Below are positions 36,580 through 50,278 of a stretch of DNA of 64,000 nt, piece after piece (positions within the stretch are counted from its first letter, which is position 1; each line of letters opens with the position of its first letter). The notes under the pieces are model-generated. The model did no database searches. It was given only the letters and a program-made list of their open reading frames with translations, and was not told the origin of the DNA. The position numbers were made by a program, and so were the translations under genes. This stretch comes from Aliishimia ponticola (GTDB taxonomy: Bacteria > Pseudomonadota > Alphaproteobacteria > Rhodobacterales > Rhodobacteraceae): NCBI RefSeq assembly GCF_004803475.1, contig NZ_SRKY01000001.1, positions 496,001 to 560,000 of the forward strand, in the 5' to 3' direction.

Positions 36580-37350
36580 ATGCCTCTGAGCAGAGAAGAC
36601 GTCCCGCAGGTCATCGCAGAAGCCATGCAGAAAATGGTGGCGTCGCAGGATTCGAACATCGTGTGGGAGATTTTCTGCGCGGCCTGCGAGGGGTTCGGAT
36701 TTGACAAGATGCTGTATGGCGCGACGCGGATGCCCAAGGATGCGCGTCTGGGGGATCTGCGGGATGCGCTGATCCTGCACCACGGCCCCAAGGTCTATGC
36801 CGACGCCTATATCGAGGAAGAACTCTATCTCTATTCCCCGACCTATGCCTGGGCCGCGCAGAATTCCGGTTTCGTCAGTTGGCCCGCCGCCGCCGCGCAG
36901 TTCAACGGAGAGATCAAACCCCAGCATATGCGCATTGCAGAGCTTAACGCGCAGTTCGGGCTGCGGTCTGGCTTTGTGGGATCGCTGGATGATGTCGTGC
37001 GCGGGATGCACGGTGTCATCGGTCTAAGCCCCGCTGGCGCCATCGAACAGCCCGAGGCGGATGACCTCTGGCGCGAGGTCGGCGCACATATCGAGACATT
37101 GTCGAACCTTCTCCACCTTCGGATCGCAAGCCTGCCGCTGCCGGGGCAACGCCGCCCGCTCAGCACCCGCCAACTCGAAGCGTTGCACTGGTTTGCGCAG
37201 GGCAAGACCATGCAGGACATCGCCGTGATCATGGGGCTTAGCGCCAATACCGTGGAAAAGCACCTGCGGATGGCCCGCGAGTCGCTGGATGCGAACACCA
37301 CGGCCCATGCAATCCAGAAAGCCACCTCTTTGAATCTGCTGACGGTCTGA
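36580..37350 (+). CDS. LuxR-family regulator with altered autoinducer-binding domain (LuxR solo)
   Basis: A 256-residue protein with an autoinducer-binding domain (about 20-170) and a C-terminal LuxR HTH (about 186-250, LSTRQLEALHWFAQGKTMQDIAVIMGLSANT). Aligning to TraR without gaps, the six conserved pocket residues W57, Y61, D70, P71, W85, G113 appear as Tyr73, Tyr77, Ser86, Pro87, Trp101, Gly131. Loss of the Asp that holds the acyl-homoserine-lactone amide and the Trp-to-Tyr change suggest a different ligand. No luxI gene is present in the window. It follows a palindrome and rlmE. Confidence 0.88.
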   Translation: MPLSREDVPQVIAEAMQKMVASQDSNIVWEIFCAACEGFGFDKMLYGATRMPKDARLGDLRDALILHHGPKVYADAYIEEELYLYSPTYAWAAQNSGFVSWPAAAAQFNGEIKPQHMRIAELNAQFGLRSGFVGSLDDVVRGMHGVIGLSPAGAIEQPEADDLWREVGAHIETLSNLLHLRIASLPLPGQRRPLSTRQLEALHWFAQGKTMQDIAVIMGLSANTVEKHLRMARESLDANTTAHAIQKATSLNLLTV

Positions 37351-39413: not shown

Positions 39414-40496
39414 TCAAGTACGGGCCGGAAACTCGCAAACGAAAACGGTGCCGACGTCATTTCCCGGCCTGCAATAAATGCGGCCGTTATGTAGCTCCAT
39501 GATGCGTTTGCATGTCGCCAGCCCCAAACCGGTGCCTTCGAATTCCCGTTCCGAATGCAAGCGCAAGAACGGTTCAAACACCTGGGCCGCATCTTCTTGC
39601 GAAATCCCGATCCCATTATCCTGAACAAGGATCTGAATGGCAGCATTCGTCTTGCGCGCAGATACTTGAACTTGCGGCGTGTCCGACCGGTTATATTTCA
39701 GCCCATTGCTCACAAGGTTCTGGAAAAGCTGAACAATCAAGGGCGCGTCGCCTTGGATTTCCGGCAAGTCCGGCGCAATGCCCAGTTCAGCATTGGCTGT
39801 TTTGAGATCCATCGACAGGTTTTGCGCGACCGCCTCCATCTGCGCATTCAGATCGACGCGCGTGGCTTCGGGCGCGGAATCATCAAGGCTATTATAGGCC
39901 TGTAACGCGACGATCAGTTGATCCATGCGCTGCGCACCGTGGTTCACGAAATCCAACATCTCCTTATGTTCCTGAACAACGGGGTCGGGCAGGTCTTCGA
40001 ACAGGAACTCGATCGCCCCGGTGATCGACCTGAGTGGCGCGCGCAAGTCATGCACGAGCATTCTGGAAAAGGCCTCAAGGCTTTGTCGCTGCTCCCGGAT
40101 CATCTTTGTCATGCCGGAACGCTCAATCGCGTTGGTGATGCTGCGATCCAGCGCGGTATGCGTCATGGACGATTTGGGAATGTAGTCCTGTGCGCCCATC
40201 TGCATCGCCTTGACCGCAATCGCCTCGTCGCCCTGACCGGTGATCATCACCACCGGCGTATCAGGGAACATCGCCACGATCTTTTCCAGCGTCGCCAAGC
40301 CGTCACGACCGGGCAGGGAGTAATCCAGCAAGATGCAATCGGGATTCAAGCCGTCGCTGAGCCACGTCAGACATTCGGTGCTGTCCAGCGCCTCGGTCAC
40401 CGGATGATAGGAATGGCCGGAGCGTTTGAGCGCCCGCGTGACGAATTCCCGATCTTCAGGATTGTCGTCAACAAGCAAAAGGGAAATGTCGCCCAC
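39414..40496 (-). CDS. Response regulator-histidine kinase fusion
   Basis: A 360-residue soluble protein with an N-terminal receiver (about 4-120; Asp58 in ILLDYSLPG, Lys in IPKSS) and a C-terminal kinase: dimerisation helix with His149 in LVHDLRAP, N box in LFQNLVSNGLKYN, NGIGIS and GTGLGLATCK. The receiver-kinase order suggests a kinase switched by phosphorylation from another kinase, as in phytochrome-type relays. No membrane or sensor domain is present. It is the last gene of the sensor cluster in transcription order, 3 bp after the preceding regulator. Confidence 0.93.
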   Translation of the reverse strand: MGDISLLLVDDNPEDREFVTRALKRSGHSYHPVTEALDSTECLTWLSDGLNPDCILLDYSLPGRDGLATLEKIVAMFPDTPVVMITGQGDEAIAVKAMQMGAQDYIPKSSMTHTALDRSITNAIERSGMTKMIREQRQSLEAFSRMLVHDLRAPLRSITGAIEFLFEDLPDPVVQEHKEMLDFVNHGAQRMDQLIVALQAYNSLDDSAPEATRVDLNAQMEAVAQNLSMDLKTANAELGIAPDLPEIQGDAPLIVQLFQNLVSNGLKYNRSDTPQVQVSARKTNAAIQILVQDNGIGISQEDAAQVFEPFLRLHSEREFEGTGLGLATCKRIMELHNGRIYCRPGNDVGTVFVCEFPART

Positions 40497-40499
40497 GGC

Positions 40500-40928
40500 T
40501 CAGACCTGTTTTGGAAGAAGCGCGAAGTGGAACCAATAGTCGTGAAGACGGGAAATCGCCTCTGAAAATTCGTTCCACGACACGGGTTTACGCACATAGG
40601 TATTGGCGCCCATCGCATAGCATTGAGAGACATCTTCTTCCCGCGTCGATGTGGTCATGATCACGACGGGGATGACGCAAAGCCGTTCGTCCTGCTTGAT
40701 CCGCGCCAAAAGCCGCCGGCCATCCAGCCCCGGCATGTTCAAATCCAGAAGGATCAGCGCCGGAAGCAGGTTGTCCTGATTGTTGAGCATGTCCCACGCC
40801 TCAGCCCCGTCGCTACAACGGATCAACGGGTTCGCAAGGTTACTGCTTTTCCGCAGCGCGCGTTCGGTGGCTTCGAAATCATCGTCATTATCATCAATGA
40901 TCATTATGGCTTTTGAGGTTTGATCCAT
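40500..40928 (-). CDS. Rcp1-like single-domain response regulator
   Basis: A 142-residue receiver domain of the cyanobacterial phytochrome-partner (Rcp1) style: IMIIDDNDDDFEATERAL, phospho-acceptor Asp62 in LLDLNMPGLDG, Thr in MTTSTREEDV and Lys in VRKPV. No output domain. It overlaps the upstream kinase gene by 25 bp and lies just ahead of the receiver-kinase fusion, so it is probably the phosphate carrier between them. Confidence 0.92.
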   Translation of the reverse strand: MDQTSKAIMIIDDNDDDFEATERALRKSSNLANPLIRCSDGAEAWDMLNNQDNLLPALILLDLNMPGLDGRRLLARIKQDERLCVIPVVIMTTSTREEDVSQCYAMGANTYVRKPVSWNEFSEAISRLHDYWFHFALLPKQV

Positions 40929-42313
40929 CTTAATCGCGACTCCTTGTCGGGAAATGAAATGTAAAAACTGCTGCCCGTGTGGGGGGTAGAGGTGACGCGA
41001 ACGACGCCATCGTTCGCCTCGACGATCTTCTTGACGAATGCGAGCCCCGCGCCGATGCCCTCGCCATATTTTCCGGGGCGTTGCAGGCGCTTGAAAAGGC
41101 GGAAGATATCTTCGCTGAATTCGCCCTCCATCCCAATTCCGTTGTCCCGGACATAGAGAGCGGAGTGCAGGGTTTCGCCATCGACGAACACGCTGTCCGC
41201 AAAGCCGACCCAGACCGTTTTCTGCGCCTCTTCATTGAAAACCAGCCCGTTCACGATGAGGTGCCGCAAGCAGGTGCGCAGTTGCAGCGGGTCGAAGAAC
41301 AGCTTGGGAAGGCTCGTCTCCAGAATGACCTCGCCCTGAACCCCGTCGGGCAGATTATCCGCAAGATCAGTGACGATTTCGGTCAGGTCATTCCATTCGG
41401 GCGCGTTTCTTGCGGTGGCGTCGGCATAGGCCAGAAGGCTCTCGACCAGGTTTTCCATGGACCCGCAAAGTTCCTGCATGCGTACAAGGCGCTTGCGCCC
41501 CTCTGCCGGCAATTTGTCTTCGAAATCCTCGACCAGAAACCGCGCGTGATTAGCGATGCCGCGCATCGGGGTGCGCAAGTCATGCGAAGTGAAGAAGGCG
41601 AATTCGGAAAGCTCGCGATTGGTTCTGTCCAATTGAGCGTTTCGCCGCGTCAGGTCTTCGTTCAGTCCGACCAGAAGCTTGTTCTGCGCGCGGTCAGATT
41701 GCAGCGTCGACCAGCCGATCCAGATGATGATGAGCGGCCCGAGAATATTGAGGAACGCCAAAACCCGCAGGATCGCCCCGAGCTCGTCGACTTGGCGGCG
41801 GGTTTCCTGTTGCGACTTGACGCGCAGCGCCTGAACGATCGCAATGATACTGACGGCGGCACTTGCATCCGAAATGCGCACCACCGCGTCGATTTCGGCG
41901 GGCGCCGCGCCATCGTCGCGCCGTTCGTCCACGACGTTCAGCGCATCGATATAGCTGCGCAATGTGCTGCGGATCGGGTTCGTGTCGATCTCGACCCCGG
42001 CCAGTTCTGCCAGCGCTTCCAACTCGCCCAGATTGTAAAGCGCCTTGTCATAGCTGCGCACCGCGGCGATCCGGTATCCAGATTCCCTTGGCCGCAGGAC
42101 ATAATTTTTGAAGTTGTGGATCAGCCCGGTATAGCCCACCGCAGAGTGAAACCCCGTAATCGCATTAGGAAGTCGTTCACCATACATCACATCGTATTGG
42201 TGGATCTTGTGGCGGACTGTCCGCAGCAGAATTTCGGCAGTGACGCCGGATAATACGACGAAGGCCATGACGGCCCACAGCACACGCATGCGGTTTTTGA
42301 CCGACATCTTCAT
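40904..42313 (-). CDS. Membrane histidine kinase with periplasmic helical sensor
   Basis: A 469-residue kinase. A first membrane helix (about 8-30) and a second (about 186-206) enclose a periplasmic helical domain containing HSAVGYTGLIHNFKNYVLR (56-74), a segment I have seen in other bacterial sensor proteins. Then a dimerisation helix with His244 in TSHDLRTP and an ATPase domain with LRHLIVNGLVFN, RDNGIGM and GEGIGAGLAFVKK follow. It overlaps both neighbours (the next kinase upstream by 4 bp and the regulator downstream by 25 bp), so the run is one transcription unit. Confidence 0.92.
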   Translation of the reverse strand: MKMSVKNRMRVLWAVMAFVVLSGVTAEILLRTVRHKIHQYDVMYGERLPNAITGFHSAVGYTGLIHNFKNYVLRPRESGYRIAAVRSYDKALYNLGELEALAELAGVEIDTNPIRSTLRSYIDALNVVDERRDDGAAPAEIDAVVRISDASAAVSIIAIVQALRVKSQQETRRQVDELGAILRVLAFLNILGPLIIIWIGWSTLQSDRAQNKLLVGLNEDLTRRNAQLDRTNRELSEFAFFTSHDLRTPMRGIANHARFLVEDFEDKLPAEGRKRLVRMQELCGSMENLVESLLAYADATARNAPEWNDLTEIVTDLADNLPDGVQGEVILETSLPKLFFDPLQLRTCLRHLIVNGLVFNEEAQKTVWVGFADSVFVDGETLHSALYVRDNGIGMEGEFSEDIFRLFKRLQRPGKYGEGIGAGLAFVKKIVEANDGVVRVTSTPHTGSSFYISFPDKESRLRWIKPQKP

Positions 42314-43470
42314 GCGGAACTTTGGCCTTCCGCTGCGGGGGGCGCGGACAGGGAAAAGTAGAATACGGAGCCTGCGCCCAGCGCCGACTGCAACTCGATT
42401 TCCCCTGACGAAGTTTCGACGATCTTTTTGACGAAGGCGAGCCCAGCGCCCGTGCCCTCGCTGTATTTGTCGTTTGTGTTCAGCCGCTTGAACATCTTGA
42501 ACACGTCGGCCTGAAACTCCGGGTCGATCCCGATCCCGTTATCCTTGACGTAGAAGGCATTGCGCATCGTCTTGCCGTTGACTTCGACGCTGTCCAGAAA
42601 TCCGATGTGAACCGTCCGTTCGTCGTTTTCATTATAGGTCAGGCCGTTCGTTATCAGGTTACGCATGACCGTGTTGAACTCCGCCGGATTGCCCGAGATC
42701 TGCGGCAATGGCGTGTCGATCTCGATCGTGCCGTTTTTCTCGTTCAGCGTTTCCCGCAAGGTTTCGATGATCTTTTCGACTTCCCGTTTCGTGTCGAAAA
42801 GTTCGATCGCTTGTTGGCGGCCAAGGCGTGAGTATTGCATCAGGGTGGAGATCAGTTCTTCGACCCGCGCGCAAAGTTCCTGCATCCGGGTGATCCGCTT
42901 GAGCGCATCTGCCGGCAGGCTTTCGGCGTGATCCTCGACAAGAAACTGCGCGTGGTTGGAGATGCCGCGCATCGGCGCTTTCAGATCATGCGACGCGATA
43001 TAGGCGAATTCGCTCATCTTCTCCTGAATTTCGCGGGATTCCTCCGCCCGCCGATGGCTTTGCAAAAGCTCTGCGTCGCGGAGCGCCATCTGGAACTGGC
43101 TGGGCATGGCAAGAAAACGGGGGAGCAGGCGGTAAAGCTGGATGGCCGTATAGACAGAGATGATCGCAGTCATGACCTTGATCGCCGCTTGCAGCCCATA
43201 CGCGGGCACCCAGAGCGTGGCCAGTCCCGCCAAATGGCTGAACCCGCAGGCCAGAATGAAGGTCGCGAACAGTCTGCCCACCTGCGCATCCAGAAGATCG
43301 GGACGGCGGCGCACGGCTTGCAGGATCAGAACCGGGATCGCGAAATAGGCGCAGGCGACAAGAAGGTCCGACACGCCATGCATCGCAATCAAATCCGGAC
43401 GCCACAAAAGACATACGGCATGCGGTACAAACTGCGTCGCGCTGAACAGGTCGAGGATATAATCGAACAT
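42310..43470 (-). CDS. Histidine kinase with ETR1-like (ethylene/copper-site) membrane domain
   Basis: A 386-residue kinase with three N-terminal membrane helices (about 31-52, 65-87, 95-117). These match the plant ethylene receptor: SDLLVACAYFAIP (Asp35, Tyr42, Pro46), FILACGFSHL (Ile72, Cys75, His79) and IKVMTA (Lys98). ETR1 uses Asp25, Tyr32, Cys65 and His69 at its copper/ethylene site, each exactly ten positions lower. A PHAVCLLW motif precedes, as in related bacterial proteins. His161 in SHDLKAP, N box RNLITNGLTYN, KDNGIGID and GTGAGLAFVKK make a complete kinase. It heads the unit, downstream of a 15-bp dyad, and overlaps the next kinase by 4 bp. Confidence 0.88.
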   Translation of the reverse strand: MFDYILDLFSATQFVPHAVCLLWRPDLIAMHGVSDLLVACAYFAIPVLILQAVRRRPDLLDAQVGRLFATFILACGFSHLAGLATLWVPAYGLQAAIKVMTAIISVYTAIQLYRLLPRFLAMPSQFQMALRDAELLQSHRRAEESREIQEKMSEFAYIASHDLKAPMRGISNHAQFLVEDHAESLPADALKRITRMQELCARVEELISTLMQYSRLGRQQAIELFDTKREVEKIIETLRETLNEKNGTIEIDTPLPQISGNPAEFNTVMRNLITNGLTYNENDERTVHIGFLDSVEVNGKTMRNAFYVKDNGIGIDPEFQADVFKMFKRLNTNDKYSEGTGAGLAFVKKIVETSSGEIELQSALGAGSVFYFSLSAPPAAEGQSSA

Positions 43471-43548: not shown

Positions 43549-44346
43549 TTAACCACGGCTGCTTCTTGAAAAAACGCTTGGCGGTTTGGTTACCTTCGGT
43601 CGCAGAAGCCCCTCGAACTCGTTGGGCTTCGGCTCCTGCAACTGGCTCAACGAGTCCAGAATGTCGGGCGCTTGCTCCATCGCGATCTTGGTCAGTTGAT
43701 TGTCTTCGGCAAGTGCTTCCATGTCTTGAAAGAACTCTTCCAGCCGCAGGCAGGTGCCTTCGATCTCGGCGATATGTGCGGATTGGGAACTGACGGAGCC
43801 GTTGGACGATTTGAGCTGCCGCACCTGCCGGATCATGCGGTTGATCATCGGGCGCATTTCGCTGGAACAGGCCTTGGAGAAGGATCGCAACACGGCTTCG
43901 ACAGCGCGCATTTCGGCGCTAGCCTCGTCCGCCGCGCGTGTGAGGCGGAGCTTTTCCAGCGCGTTGAGCGAGGCGCGCGTCAGAGAGGCGATGTTGAGAT
44001 CGCCCTTGTCGATGTAATCCGAAAACCCGCGGTTGATCGCCTCAAGCGCGGTAGCGGTGTCGCCATTGCCGGAAATCATGATCAGATGCGCATCCGCATT
44101 CGTGCGATGCGCGCGCACGATGGGTAACAGGTCCAGACCATTGTCGGAACCAATGGACATATCGACGAAGATCAGGTCGAATTTGATGGAGTCCATGACA
44201 TCGCAGGCTTCCGCGATCGTGCAGGCTTGGCGCAGGATGAAGTCGAGGCCCGTCGCTTCGAGAAGCCGGGAAAATCGCTTTTGGTCGAATGCGTTATCCT
44301 CGACTAACAGGGCATTAACGTAACGCGACTTCTGCGGTCTGGTCAT
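43549..44346 (-). CDS. Receiver-domain protein with helical C-terminus
   Basis: A 265-residue protein: receiver domain (about 8-130; NALLVEDNAFDQ, Asp62 in IFVDMSIGSDNG, Ser/Lys positions in MISGNGD and YIDKGD) followed by a helical region (about 140-240) and a basic tail (KVTKPPSVFSRSSRG). No known output domain; the helical part could be a dimerisation or kinase-like His-helix lacking ATPase, but no clear His motif is seen. The ATG at 44346 has GAAGG 6 bases upstream. It is transcribed towards the kinase unit and has its own copy of the dyad. Confidence 0.85.
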   Translation of the reverse strand: MTRPQKSRYVNALLVEDNAFDQKRFSRLLEATGLDFILRQACTIAEACDVMDSIKFDLIFVDMSIGSDNGLDLLPIVRAHRTNADAHLIMISGNGDTATALEAINRGFSDYIDKGDLNIASLTRASLNALEKLRLTRAADEASAEMRAVEAVLRSFSKACSSEMRPMINRMIRQVRQLKSSNGSVSSQSAHIAEIEGTCLRLEEFFQDMEALAEDNQLTKIAMEQAPDILDSLSQLQEPKPNEFEGLLRPKVTKPPSVFSRSSRG

Positions 44347-44408
44347 TTGAACCTTCAAGACACTACTCCGGATCTCGGCACTCGGAGTGCAAAAAAGCAT
44401 AGGACCAG

Positions 44409-44423
44409 TTATTAATTGATTAA
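44409..44423. promoter_or_regulatory. 15-bp AT-rich dyad, copy 2
   Basis: An identical TTATTAATTGATTAA, 63-77 bp upstream of the receiver-protein start at 44346 and in the same orientation as copy 1. Two copies at comparable distances from two neighbouring starts suggest common control of both transcription units. Confidence 0.6.
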
Positions 44424-44624
44424 TGCTGCAGATATGGGGGCAAGAAAGCCCCAACCTTCAAAGCCAAATTGTCCGCATCTCCACGCGATCCTGCCAGCGC
44501 GGCCTTCGCGAACATGCGGGCCAAGGCATGTTGAGGAGCGTGGGTTAACGCAAAACCTTGACCCGCCGTGTCGCTACCCGATCCCAGCTACCGGGCGGCC
44601 GACCTCTGCGTGTGGCAGTTCCGA

Positions 44625-46019
44625 TCACTCACCTTCGATCATCGCCGTTTCAAGCCCGCTGAGCACTGGGTCGAGCAGATAGGTCAGAACCGTTTCTTCG
44701 CCCGTGGCCACCATGACCTGCACCGGCATACCGGGATGCGGCGTTACCTTGTCGGGCAGGTTTGCATAGGCGTCTGCGGGGATCTGCACGTGGATCTTGT
44801 AGTAACTGACGCCCGCACCCTCATCAAAGAAGCTGTCAGCAGACACATAGGACACGCGCCCTTCAATGGGCGGGGTGGTGCGGAAACTATAGGCTGACAG
44901 GCGCACGCGCGCGTCACGACCCACCGCGATTTCATCAATGTCCGAGGTGGCAACCTGCGCTTCGATCATGAAGGGCGCATCACCCGGCACGATTTGCATC
45001 AGCACGCCGCCCGCCGGCACCACCGCGCCGATTGTGTTCGCCTCGAACCCGACGATCCGCCCGGAAATCGGGGCGCGGATGTCCAGACGATCCCGTACAT
45101 CCTGATAGCTGCGGATACGCTGGCGTAGGTCAAAGATGTTTTCGGTCAGCACCTGCTGGTCGTCCGCGATGCGCTGGCGCCGATCCCGCGCGACCTGCAA
45201 TTGACGCTCGCGCACCTCGGCCACCTGGTCGAGCACATCCTGCCGTTCATTTTCGCGCTGGCCAATCCGGGCCAGTACGGCAAGGCGGTCTTCCTCGCGG
45301 GCATAAAGCCGCGCCTTGGACACCAGCCCTTTTTCAAAGAGGCTTTGCAGATCGGCCAATTCCTCTTCGACGATGGTGAGTTGTGCGTGCAGCATCTGGG
45401 TCTCGCCCTCCAGACCGACGAGGCGTGTGTTCAGCTGCGCGATACGTTCGTCGAAAATGCTGATTTCACCCAGATCGGACTGCCGGTTGGACTGGAACAG
45501 CGCCACTTGTGTCTCTTTGACCTGCGCCAAGGCCGGATCGGAAGCGATCAGGCCGTCAAGCTCGGGCGAGAACGTGATTGCATCCGCGCCCTGCATCGCC
45601 GCGCGCAGCCGTCCCTCGCGCGCCAGGGCGGAGGCAAGCTGACTGCGCAGCACGCCAAGCTGCGCATCGACCCGCGCACTGCTGAGCCGCGCCAGAACCT
45701 GCCCGGCGGCCACATCGTCGCCCTCGCGGACAAGGATTTCCGACAAGATACCGCCTTCAAGGTGATCGACGACCTGAAGATCGCCTTCGATTTCAAAAGT
45801 GCCGCCCCCAACGACGGCGCTTTGGATTTTCTGCGTCGCCGCCTGATAGAACAGCGCGCCAATCAGGCCGAACCCGGCAAGGCATAGCCAAAAGGTCAGC
45901 CCCGCCACCTTGGTCGCCACGATTTGCGGGCGGTCGAAACTGCCGGGCACCTTGCCGTTCAGCGGTCCCACGGTCCCGGTTTTGGGCTTGGTCAGCGGTC
46001 GGGTGTCATCTTGTGTCAT
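44625..46019 (-). CDS. Type I secretion periplasmic adaptor (HlyD/PrtE family)
   Basis: A 464-residue membrane fusion protein: one N-terminal membrane helix (about 35-60), a lipoyl-like half motif (GGILSEILVREGDDVAAGQVL near 92), a long coiled-coil hairpin (about 130-315) and a C-terminal beta-barrel region with DIRAPISGRIVGFEANTIG near 317 and PHPGMPVQVMV near 435. It bridges the ATPase and the outer-membrane channel (TolC type, not in this window). Its ATG overlaps the stop of the ATPase gene (ATGA). Confidence 0.93.
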   Translation of the reverse strand: MTQDDTRPLTKPKTGTVGPLNGKVPGSFDRPQIVATKVAGLTFWLCLAGFGLIGALFYQAATQKIQSAVVGGGTFEIEGDLQVVDHLEGGILSEILVREGDDVAAGQVLARLSSARVDAQLGVLRSQLASALAREGRLRAAMQGADAITFSPELDGLIASDPALAQVKETQVALFQSNRQSDLGEISIFDERIAQLNTRLVGLEGETQMLHAQLTIVEEELADLQSLFEKGLVSKARLYAREEDRLAVLARIGQRENERQDVLDQVAEVRERQLQVARDRRQRIADDQQVLTENIFDLRQRIRSYQDVRDRLDIRAPISGRIVGFEANTIGAVVPAGGVLMQIVPGDAPFMIEAQVATSDIDEIAVGRDARVRLSAYSFRTTPPIEGRVSYVSADSFFDEGAGVSYYKIHVQIPADAYANLPDKVTPHPGMPVQVMVATGEETVLTYLLDPVLSGLETAMIEGE

Positions 46020-47800
46020 GTGGACGCTCCTGAGCGGGGCTGCGCATCATCGCCCTTTTCGTTGGACTTGCCCGAGGATGGGCGGGGCCGGTGCAGCGTG
46101 GTGACTTTGGGATTTTCGAATGTCTCGTGCGGGGCCATCGGCTCTGTCGCGGAGGCGAGGATATCGCGCGCCGCGCCGAACTTGGTCAGCCGTCCGTTCA
46201 CCATCAGCCCTGCGTGGCTCATCCGTTGAAGAATGGCCATCCGGTGCGTGACCACGATGACGACGCAGCCCTCTGCACTGGCCGCAGCGACCGCACGCGC
46301 CAATGCTTCTTCGCCCTCGGGGTCAAGATTGGCATTGGGCTCGTCCAGAACGATCAGGCGTTTTTCCCCGAAAAAGGCGCGGGCCAGACCGATGCGCTGG
46401 CGCTGGCCTGCGGATAAAAGCTCCCCCCGCATGCCGACCTGCGCGTTATAGCCGCCCGGCAGGCTGAGGATCAGGTTATGCACCTGCGCCAGTTTCGCCG
46501 CGCGCACCACATCGGCAGCGTCGGCGTTCTCATCCATAGAGGCGATGTTTTCCGCGATGGTGCCATCGAACAGCTCAACCCGCTGGGGCAGGAACCCCAC
46601 ATGCGCACCGATCTGGTCAATCGGCCAATCCTCCAGCGAGGCATCGTCGATACGGATGTGACCGCGCGCCAAGGGTTGAAGCCCGACGAGGCTGCGCGCC
46701 AACGTGGTCTTGCCCGACCCGCTGGGACCGATCAGCCCCATCGTATCGCCCGGGCGCAGATCAAAGGTGACATCAAAGATCAGCGGGTTCTGCTGCGCGG
46801 GCACGACCACGGTCGCGTTTTCAACCGACAGGCGGCCTTCGGGTTCGGGCAATTCGATGCGGACCTTTCCGGTTTCGATCCCGGCAAGGATCGCGTTCAG
46901 GCGCTGGCGGGCAGACGCGGCGGAGAGCAGGGCGCTCCATCCTGCGATGGCCTGTTCCACAGGCGCCGCCGCACGGCCCAGAAGGATAGAGGCGGCGATC
47001 ATCACGCCGGGGTTCAATTCGCCGCGCAGAACCAGCGTGACACCGACGGCAAGGATCGCGATCTGCAACACCAGCCGCGCGAACCGGGCCAGCGCACTGA
47101 AGGTCGCGACCCGGTCGACCACCTTGTTCGACGACAGCATGGACACGACCGAGCGCGCCTGCCACCGGTCGATCAGGGCAGGTGTCTTGCCCATGGAACG
47201 GACGACATCCGCGTTGCGCACCATTTCTTCGGCCAGCGCATGTGCGGCCCGGCCAGTCCGTTCGGCATCTGCATTGGGTTTGCGTGCGCTGATCTCGCTG
47301 AGCACGCCCAGCACGAACAGCACGGAAATTCCTGCAATCGCAACCCAGCCCAGCGCCGGATGGAATAGGAACATGATGGCCACGAAAACAAGCGACCAGG
47401 GCGCGTCGAGCAGGGCGGTAAACACCGGACCGGCCACGAAACGGCGCAGCACCTGCAAATCCCGCACCGGCTGCGCGCCGCGCCGATCCTCGGCGGAGGC
47501 CGATTGCACGAGCACATTCATCACGATGGGGCCAAGGCTGTCTTCCAGCCGCGTACCAAGCCGCGTGGCCAGCTTTTGCCGGATCGTGTCGAAGAAAAAG
47601 AAGAAAAGCAGCGCGACAACCGCGCCAATGGTCAGGACCGCAAGCGTCGAGGTACTGCCGGAGTTCATCACCCGCGAGAACAGTTGCAGCATGTAAAGGG
47701 GTGCCGTCAGGGCCAGAATGTTAACGAAGAAACTCGCGATGAAGATGGCGGCAATGACGCCGCGCTGACCTTCAAAGACGGATGATCTGTGATGTTTCAT
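46016..47800 (-). CDS. Type I secretion ATPase/permease (PrtD family)
   Basis: A 594-residue ABC exporter: six membrane helices (about 10-310) and an ATPase domain with Walker A GPSGSGKTT near residue 358, signature LSAGQRQRIGLARAF (Ala for Gly in the LSGGQ, as in many PrtD-like exporters) and Walker B LIVLDEPNANLD. There is no N-terminal peptidase domain, matching the RTX-export class. It exports unprocessed substrates with a C-terminal signal, presumably the RTX protein encoded 200 bp upstream. Confidence 0.94.
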   Translation of the reverse strand: MKHHRSSVFEGQRGVIAAIFIASFFVNILALTAPLYMLQLFSRVMNSGSTSTLAVLTIGAVVALLFFFFFDTIRQKLATRLGTRLEDSLGPIVMNVLVQSASAEDRRGAQPVRDLQVLRRFVAGPVFTALLDAPWSLVFVAIMFLFHPALGWVAIAGISVLFVLGVLSEISARKPNADAERTGRAAHALAEEMVRNADVVRSMGKTPALIDRWQARSVVSMLSSNKVVDRVATFSALARFARLVLQIAILAVGVTLVLRGELNPGVMIAASILLGRAAAPVEQAIAGWSALLSAASARQRLNAILAGIETGKVRIELPEPEGRLSVENATVVVPAQQNPLIFDVTFDLRPGDTMGLIGPSGSGKTTLARSLVGLQPLARGHIRIDDASLEDWPIDQIGAHVGFLPQRVELFDGTIAENIASMDENADAADVVRAAKLAQVHNLILSLPGGYNAQVGMRGELLSAGQRQRIGLARAFFGEKRLIVLDEPNANLDPEGEEALARAVAAASAEGCVVIVVTHRMAILQRMSHAGLMVNGRLTKFGAARDILASATEPMAPHETFENPKVTTLHRPRPSSGKSNEKGDDAQPRSGAST

Positions 47801-47948
47801 AACTTCGCCTCAAACTGACCTGAATAAAATGACGGCACCCTGACCCAAAGACGTCCGCGGTGGCTGGGTGACCCCGTGAGGCCCTCGAGCCAGGGCCCCG
47901 GAAGCGCAGGTTCGGGAAAGGGCCCGATCCGGCGCGACCGATTTGCGT

Positions 47949-47978
47949 GGCAGCCGCGAAGTAATGCACGCGGCTGCC
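47949..47978 (-). terminator. Strong hairpin between the RTX gene and the exporter genes
   Basis: GGCAGCCGCG (47949-47958) pairs perfectly with CGCGGCTGCC (47969-47978) around a 10-base loop, 24 bp after the RTX stop. There is no U-tract on the minus strand. It may stabilise the RTX message and reduce read-through to the exporter genes, giving more cargo than exporter. Confidence 0.6.
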
Positions 47979-48001
47979 AATCTCATACCCGGTTGACCGG
48001 A

Positions 48002-50278
48002 TCAGATTTCGACAAGAGCGCCTTCGTTGACGATGATGTCGATGGCTTCGTACTGGTGGTTGCCATCGGTCCAGTCATTGATCGTCTCAAGGCTGTCGAA
48101 GTTGAACGGAGCGTTCGCTGCAATCCCGAGCAAGGTCAGGGTCGCGCCGCCCACCGAGATCACGGTGTCGGTGCCGTTATCGACCACGCTCGTTGCCCCG
48201 GTCAGGGCGTTGAACGCATCGGTATCGGACGTCGAACCGGTCTGATCTTCGATGACGAAGGTGACCACATCGTTGTCGTTGTTGAAGTCGAAGTCCGTGA
48301 CAACGTCATTGCCATCGGCAGACGAGAAGGACAGGCCATCCCAGGTCAGGTGAACCTCGAAGACGTCACCACCAGCGCCGCCGGTCAGCACGTCGTCGCC
48401 GGTCCCGCCATGCAGGAAGTCGTCGCCGCCATCACCGTACAGGGCGTCATTGCCGGCATCGCCGTCAATATCGTCCATGCCAAGGCCGCCGCTGATGTAA
48501 TCGTCGTCGTCGCCGCCCTTCATGCAGTCATTGCCGTTGCCGCCGTACATGGTATCAACACCGGCGTCGCCATACATCGTATCGTCGCCGCGGTTGCCCC
48601 ACATCTCGTCGTTGCCGTCGTTGCCGCGCATGTAGTCGTTACCGGCGTTACCCCACATGTCGTCGTCGCCGTCGTTACCATACATGGTATCGTCGTCGCC
48701 TTCGCCGCACATCCAGTCATTGCCGGCATTGCCTTCCATGTAGTCGTAGCCCGCGCCACCGAACATCGTGTCAGCGCCGTCGTTCCCGTACATCTCGTCA
48801 TTGCCGGAATTGCCCTTCATGCGGTCGTCGCCGGCATTGCCTTCCATGTCGTCATTGCCGGTGCCGCCATACATGTAGTCGTTACCGTCATTGCCGTACA
48901 TTTCGTCGTCGCCGGCATCACCGCACATGACGTCCATGCCTTCGTTACCTTCAAGGTAATCGTTGCCACTGCCGCCTTTGACGAGGTCATCGCCGGTGCC
49001 ACCATACATGGTGTCGTCACCTTTGTTGCCCCACATTTCATCATGCTTGCCTTCGCCATACATGATGTCGTTGCCGCCGCCGCCGCCCATGACATCGCAG
49101 CCGTCTTCGCCTTCGTCATAGCTGAGGCCTTCGTGGTCGAAGCAGCTTGCGGTCCAGCTGGGGGTATATTGCCCCGCCAGGCCAAAGCCGGAGTCACCGA
49201 ACATGATGTCATCGCCGGATGCGCCAAGGATCCAGTCATCACCGGAGCCGCCCAGACCGAGGTCGGATTCATGCCCGAGATTGATGGAGTCATCGCCCGA
49301 CCCGCCGTCGACATAGTCCTCACCACGGCCACCAAACAGACGGTCCTGACCTTCTTCGCCCAGGATTTCGTCGTTGCCCGCGCCGCCATCGGCCCAGTCA
49401 TCGCCGGTCCCGGCAAAGATCACATCCGCCGCGCCGATGAATTCGAACTTGACGCCGGACCACGTGTCCGAACCGATATCAAGGTCGGTTTCCGTGCCCT
49501 GACGGATGTCGCCGAAGATCTCGTCATCGCCTTCATCGCCATCAATGAAATCGCTGCCGGTGCCGCCCGCAATACGGTCATCGCCGGTGCCACCGCTGAT
49601 GTCGTCATCGCCGGAATTGCCGTAGAGCGTGTCATTGCCGTCTTCGCCGAAGATGCAGTCATCGCCGCCTTCGCCGTCAACGCAGTCATCGCCGGAGCCG
49701 GCAAGGATGAAGTCGTTGCCATCGTCGTATTGGTAACCGTCATTGTCGTCACCCATGATGACGTCATTGCCGGAATTACCTTCGATGTAGTCATTGCCGG
49801 TGCCACCGAGGATTTCGTCATCCCCTGAACCGCCATAGACCGTGTCATGGTCGGCGCCCGCGTCGATATCGTCGTTGCCGCCTTCACCATAGATCAGGTC
49901 GTCACCGCCTTCGCCATAGATCAGGTCATTGCCGTCGTCGTAATCGGGATCGCCGATCACATCACCGTCGGAATCGGCATCGTCGCCATAAAGCACGTCC
50001 TTGTCGGCGCCGCCATTGATCAGGTCGTCACCGTCCCAACCCCAGACCACGTCGCAGCCTTCTTCAGTCGTGATGTAGTTGTTGTCGGAGTTACCGACGA
50101 CCACATCATCCCCGATATCGGAATCGTAGTTGTCCGGCATCGCGTCGAGGCGCATATCGACCTGATCGTCGCCCACAGTACCGTAACCAGTGACGCCGTT
50201 GTTCCCGGACGCCTTACTCAGATCAATTTCTTCAAATTCGGGATCGCAAATGTCCCACGGATTAAATTGAGTAGCCAT
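48002..50278 (-). CDS. RTX calcium-binding protein, probable type I cargo
   Basis: A 758-residue, very acidic protein with no signal peptide. After an N-terminal stretch (1-65) nearly the whole chain to about residue 650 is made of glycine/aspartate nonapeptide repeats of the GGxGxDxxx type (for example YGGTGDDLV, GGTGNDYIEG), with many variants such as YGNDGNDYM. A C-terminal domain of about 100 residues (VTDFDFNNDNDVVTF, ending GALVEI) resembles the calcium-dependent secretion cap of RTX proteins. The beta-roll repeats fold outside the cell when calcium binds. GAAAGGAAAG precedes the ATG. No enzymatic domain is seen, so an adhesin, surface layer or matrix role is more likely than an enzyme. 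Confidence 0.9.
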   Translation of the reverse strand: MATQFNPWDICDPEFEEIDLSKASGNNGVTGYGTVGDDQVDMRLDAMPDNYDSDIGDDVVVGNSDNNYITTEEGCDVVWGWDGDDLINGGADKDVLYGDDADSDGDVIGDPDYDDGNDLIYGEGGDDLIYGEGGNDDIDAGADHDTVYGGSGDDEILGGTGNDYIEGNSGNDVIMGDDNDGYQYDDGNDFILAGSGDDCVDGEGGDDCIFGEDGNDTLYGNSGDDDISGGTGDDRIAGGTGSDFIDGDEGDDEIFGDIRQGTETDLDIGSDTWSGVKFEFIGAADVIFAGTGDDWADGGAGNDEILGEEGQDRLFGGRGEDYVDGGSGDDSINLGHESDLGLGGSGDDWILGASGDDIMFGDSGFGLAGQYTPSWTASCFDHEGLSYDEGEDGCDVMGGGGGNDIMYGEGKHDEMWGNKGDDTMYGGTGDDLVKGGSGNDYLEGNEGMDVMCGDAGDDEMYGNDGNDYMYGGTGNDDMEGNAGDDRMKGNSGNDEMYGNDGADTMFGGAGYDYMEGNAGNDWMCGEGDDDTMYGNDGDDDMWGNAGNDYMRGNDGNDEMWGNRGDDTMYGDAGVDTMYGGNGNDCMKGGDDDDYISGGLGMDDIDGDAGNDALYGDGGDDFLHGGTGDDVLTGGAGGDVFEVHLTWDGLSFSSADGNDVVTDFDFNNDNDVVTFVIEDQTGSTSDTDAFNALTGATSVVDNGTDTVISVGGATLTLLGIAANAPFNFDSLETINDWTDGNHQYEAIDIIVNEGALVEI
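48355..50070 (-). repeat. RTX nonapeptide repeat array
   Basis: About 570 residues of tandem glycine-aspartate nonapeptides within the RTX gene. The underlying DNA is a degenerate repeat array with recurring TCGTCGCCG- and CATTGCCG-type words, which explains the long open frame seen on the opposite strand. Boundaries are approximate. Confidence 0.85.

Follow-up and report, generated by a model that had tools for sequence, protein, structure and literature searches.

An ethylene-receptor-type histidine kinase in a tightly packed signalling unit of Aliishimia ponticola

Results

The window, a stretch of 64,000 nucleotides of Aliishimia ponticola DNA, contains an ATG-started open frame on the minus strand (42310..43470) with a product of 386 aa. 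From its Pfam matches, site residues and structure model, we annotated this product as an ETR1_N-type sensor histidine kinase (the ETR kinase). Three genes follow on the same strand: a second sensor histidine kinase of 469 aa (HK2; 40904..42313), in which residues about 1-211 include apparent TM segments without a Pfam match and are followed by Pfam HisKA and HATPase_c domains; a single-domain response regulator of 142 aa (40500..40928; Pfam Response_reg, E 1.5e-20); and a 360-aa REC-histidine kinase (39414..40496) with REC, HisKA and HATPase_c domains in Pfam. The ETR kinase and HK2 genes overlap by 4 nt, the HK2 and regulator genes overlap by 25 nt, and 3 nt separate the regulator from the REC-kinase; this packing suggests that the four genes share one transcript. 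A scan for promoters and terminators gave matches no more numerous than those in shuffled sequences. The preliminary description of this DNA had placed the kinase at the head of a four-gene signalling unit. The four genes are indeed there, but a gene for a 301-aa REC-domain protein (43549..44454, minus strand; Pfam Response_reg, E 8.1e-14) lies 78 nt upstream of the ETR kinase in the same orientation. This protein is possibly a fifth member of the unit, and the ETR kinase thus may not strictly head it.

Just upstream on the same strand, positions 44625-50278 encode a type I secretion pair (HlyD and ABC) together with a 758-aa RTX nonapeptide-repeat protein. A 650-aa frame on the plus strand (47876-49828) runs antisense to the RTX repeats; its translation is repetitive and rich in V, A and I, and it is probably a shadow ORF. 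A LuxR-type regulator with an autoinducer-binding domain is encoded a few genes from the unit (36580-37350, plus strand).

The N-terminus of the ETR kinase matches the ETR1_N profile (PF25487) over residues 27-122, covering model positions 2-97 of 97, with an E value of 1.9e-30 and a score of 105.4 bits against a curated Pfam cut-off of 27. This profile comparison, which the preliminary description had proposed as a check, came out far beyond chance. The output half contains HisKA at residues 152-217 (E 1.9e-8), which includes H161, and HATPase_c at residues 262-376 (E 5e-18). Both domains retain their catalytic motifs (H161, NLITNG at 271, DNGIG at 310 and GTGAGLA at 339), and the protein therefore has the domains and the H, N and G motifs of a two-component histidine kinase. 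Pfam found neither a GAF nor a PAS domain in it. The ETR1_N match and the intact HisKA and HATPase_c domains together favour reading the product as a membrane histidine kinase of the ethylene-receptor type, and this is the identity that we assign to it. It holds the single copy of ETR1_N in the whole genome. The genome also encodes a CtrA that scores above the cut-off of a Rhodobacterales-named model, which points to that group, although one control genome passes as well; a 16S search of the genome found nothing.

All seven residues of the ETR1 copper/ethylene site are present: D35, Y42, P46, I72, C75, H79 and K98, in the contexts AYFAIP and FILACGFSHL that had been reported previously. As the preliminary description had claimed, the numbers of the first six are exactly ten higher than in ETR1; for K98 (ETR1 K91) the offset is seven. 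An AlphaFold2 monomer model (pLDDT 82.6, pTM 0.69), for which the input was the window sequence plus 16 relatives, predicts helices at residues 25-55, 62-84 and 91-120; the first carries D35, Y42 and P46, the second I72, C75 and H79, and the third K98. The product thus combines the family profile, the seven residues and three predicted N-terminal TM helices. It had been suggested that C75 and H79 facing each other in a model would support a copper site. The two residues do lie one turn apart on a single predicted helix, but any helical model would place them on the same face because their spacing is i/i+4. The sensor has no sequence match to any PDB chain, and the best hit of a Foldseek search with the model had an E value of 0.69, far from the threshold of 0.001, so that solved structures cannot be used to confirm the fold. 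Two positions depart from the usual family residues: position 78 is Ser, where most members have Thr, and position 18 is Ala, where most have Gly. Given these substitutions, the ligand pocket could be differently tuned.

We compared the site across an alignment of 93 ETR1_N rows, comprising matches from the genome sample and from named organisms plus ETR1, with a few rows representing the same gene twice. The positions of the ETR1 sequence used agree with those cited elsewhere (PMC11819568, PMC6586836). All seven residues are kept in 73 of the 93 rows; by this comparison, a complete set is typical of the ETR1_N family. C75 is absent from eight rows, including that of a genome from the host's own family (G251), in which it is replaced by Ser. 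Among sampled genomes, ETR1_N occurs in 9 of 296 from the host's family (about 3%; 8 above the cut-off) and is therefore absent from most of them, in 28 of 385 from its class (about 7%) and in 29 of 398 from its phylum. Named carriers include Bradyrhizobium, Microvirga, Novosphingobium, Sphingomonas, Hyphomicrobium, Limnobacter, a Methylococcales bacterium and an uncultured Geobacter, and the carriers Azospirillum and Rhizobium have the gene on plasmids. Ethylene-type receptors have been described in many proteobacteria (PMC7700396); their presence in heterotrophic members is published and common (PMC7700396, PMC11819568).

Bacterial ETR1_N proteins have a PHxxCxxW motif (also written PHGxCxxW) ahead of TM1, which in the ETR kinase reads PHAVCLLW (residues 16-23) and supplies H17 and C20. 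In the 93-row alignment, all bacterial rows in which the seven site residues are complete also contain H17 and C20, and H17 is missing from all eight rows that lack C75. Since most rows that lack C75 are divergent throughout, this joint absence may merely mark degeneration. As a guess, H17 and C20 could form a second copper site, a copper-loading site or a structural site. L038 and L013, similar ETR-type proteins encoded by two genomes of a single genus, differ in these positions: L038 lacks H17, W23 and C75 together (ARSTCLFG, IIAGGTTH), and L013 retains all three.

Plant ETR1 shares the seven residues and is likewise a Cu(I)/ethylene sensor with three TM helices, but it has no equivalent of the bacterial H17: its N-terminus carries the C4/C6 disulfides in place of the PHxxCxxW motif. 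It also differs by its GAF domain and its receiver, and it signals mainly via CTR1. The copper ligands of ETR1 are C65 and H69 (PMC6586836).

The closest functional parallel comes from Azospirillum brasilense, in which AzoEtr1 was shown in 2025 to be a functional ethylene-binding receptor that influences biofilm formation and root colonisation; D35, C75, H79 and K98 were named for it, and D35A and C75A variants were made as predicted non-binders (PMC11819568). We recovered its gene from NZ_CP012915.1 (Sp7, plasmid ABSP7_p1), and the 525-aa product matches the published length. AzoEtr1 carries D35, Y42, P46, I72, C75, H79 and K98 with numbering identical to that of the window kinase, and the two sensors are 43% identical over 129 aa. 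Similarly, AzoEtr1 has a histidine kinase output, belongs to a heterotrophic alphaproteobacterium and is adjoined downstream, with a small overlap, by a gene for a single-domain response regulator, as published (PMC11819568). Unlike the window kinase, AzoEtr1 has a PAS domain and a kinase core of another lineage, and its unit consists of two genes rather than four. We considered and rejected placing the window kinase in an AzoEtr1-like subgroup as a whole protein: no PAS domain was found, and the kinase core falls in another clade. Because AzoEtr1 affects biofilm formation, a link between the ETR unit and the neighbouring type I secretion and RTX genes is, by analogy, conceivable. The Synechocystis protein SynEtr1 (slr1212) is also a bacterial ETR-type kinase and signals via an adjacent regulator; it differs in being cyanobacterial and bifunctional for light (PMC11819568), with a chromophore-binding GAF domain (PMC7700396) that has no counterpart among the Pfam matches of the window kinase.

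In a phylogeny built from 36 kinase cores, one clade (support 99/94) united the ETR and HK2 cores of the window and of one relative (G239) with the ETR core of a second relative (G768). Beside this clade stand two non-ETR kinases from the host's family; a homologue of the regulator (42%) follows one of them. AzoEtr1 and the other ETR kinases tested fell outside the window ETR/HK2 clade, although several of their cores are long-branched and their exact placement is unsure. Given that the ETR core clusters with that of HK2, apart from the cores of AzoEtr1 and the other ETR kinases tested, the simplest reading of the sequences is that an ethylene-type sensor became attached to a kinase of a local lineage. 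By the same reading, the ETR kinase and HK2 would be paralogues in their kinase parts, with the regulator in common.

Both relatives belong to other genera of the host's family. G239 has all four genes in the same order (identities: ETR 55%, HK2 38%, regulator 57%, REC-kinase 49%), and a homologue of the REC-domain protein (28%) adjoins its unit on the opposite strand. G768 has the ETR kinase (57%, by tblastn), the regulator (57%) and the REC-kinase (46%); HK2 is missing from its unit, and no homologue of the 43549-44454 protein was detected in that genome. The G768 ETR gene (L104:7394-8545) has an in-frame stop in the ATPase domain and is thus broken or misassembled, although the regulator and REC-kinase frames that flank it are open. 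We rejected a wide distribution of the unit within the host's family, as only G239 and G768 share it among the sampled genomes. We likewise rejected a general pairing of HK2-like sensors with the same regulator and REC-kinase, which were absent at the nine other HK2-like loci retrieved.

Discussion

Our results indicate that the preliminary description observed the ETR-type kinase correctly and read it soundly, and that a kinase of this kind was already known. Its ethylene/Cu(I) sensor reading is well supported by the family assignment, the residue set and the match to AzoEtr1, by analogy with which the window kinase would bind Cu(I) and ethylene. The novelty it implied for a heterotrophic host, as opposed to a plant or cyanobacterium, had been anticipated by AzoEtr1 (PMC11819568) and by the published proteobacterial receptors (PMC7700396).

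We consider it probable that the protein works as an ethylene-receptor-type kinase with copper- and ethylene-tuned autophosphorylation. In such a mechanism, the ETR kinase would dimerise in the inner membrane, where C75 and H79 would hold Cu(I); binding of ethylene or a different small pi-ligand to this copper would alter autophosphorylation at H161, probably lowering it, as has been proposed for the kinase activity of AzoEtr1 and SynEtr1 (PMC11819568). Phosphate would then pass to the downstream single-domain regulator and on to the REC-kinase, and HK2, whose kinase core is closely related, would bring a second signal to that regulator. These phosphotransfer partners are assigned from gene order and core relatedness alone. 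Copper handling does exist in the host, judging from the two Cu-type P1B ATPases encoded in its genome, but these discriminate little, because 13 of 14 control genomes also have matches above the cut-off.

An unlikely alternative is that the domain binds Cu(I) and responds to a signal other than ethylene, such as copper, redox state or O2, CO or another alkene. The site residues define a Cu(I) site, not ethylene specificity; SynEtr1 also responds to light (PMC11819568); the occurrence of ETR1_N in the host's family is patchy; and the host genome has no ACC deaminase, nor did we find any other link to ethylene metabolism in it. Against this, SynEtr1 and AzoEtr1, bacterial members with such a site, bind ethylene with physiological effects (PMC11819568), I72, D35, Y42, P46 and K98 are complete here alongside the copper ligands, and no copper-resistance gene was seen among the window ORFs scanned. 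That the sensor has kept the fold and binds neither copper nor ethylene is very improbable: members without C75 do exist, even in the host's family, but the ETR kinase keeps all seven residues plus H17 and C20 and matches ETR1_N at 105 bits.

Gene order and core relatedness suggest that the ethylene-type sensor is probably one of two inputs to one regulator. More tentatively, and with the balance slightly against it, the locus may be a twin-input module, in which two membrane sensors, that for ethylene/Cu(I) and one other, placed on duplicate local alphaproteobacterial kinase cores, would drive a shared single-domain regulator and REC-kinase.

The ETR kinase adds a Rhodobacterales member to the bacterial ethylene-type receptors, a growing set, and opens no new class. 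What it usefully contributes is genomic context: a tightly packed signalling unit, in which the sensor is paired with a kinase core unlike those of the other ETR kinases tested. Were the twin-input arrangement true, ethylene and a second signal would be integrated at the level of the kinases. Should the protein bind ethylene, a further bacterial lineage would join those that sense a gas hormone, and its downstream circuit would be unlike that of AzoEtr1.
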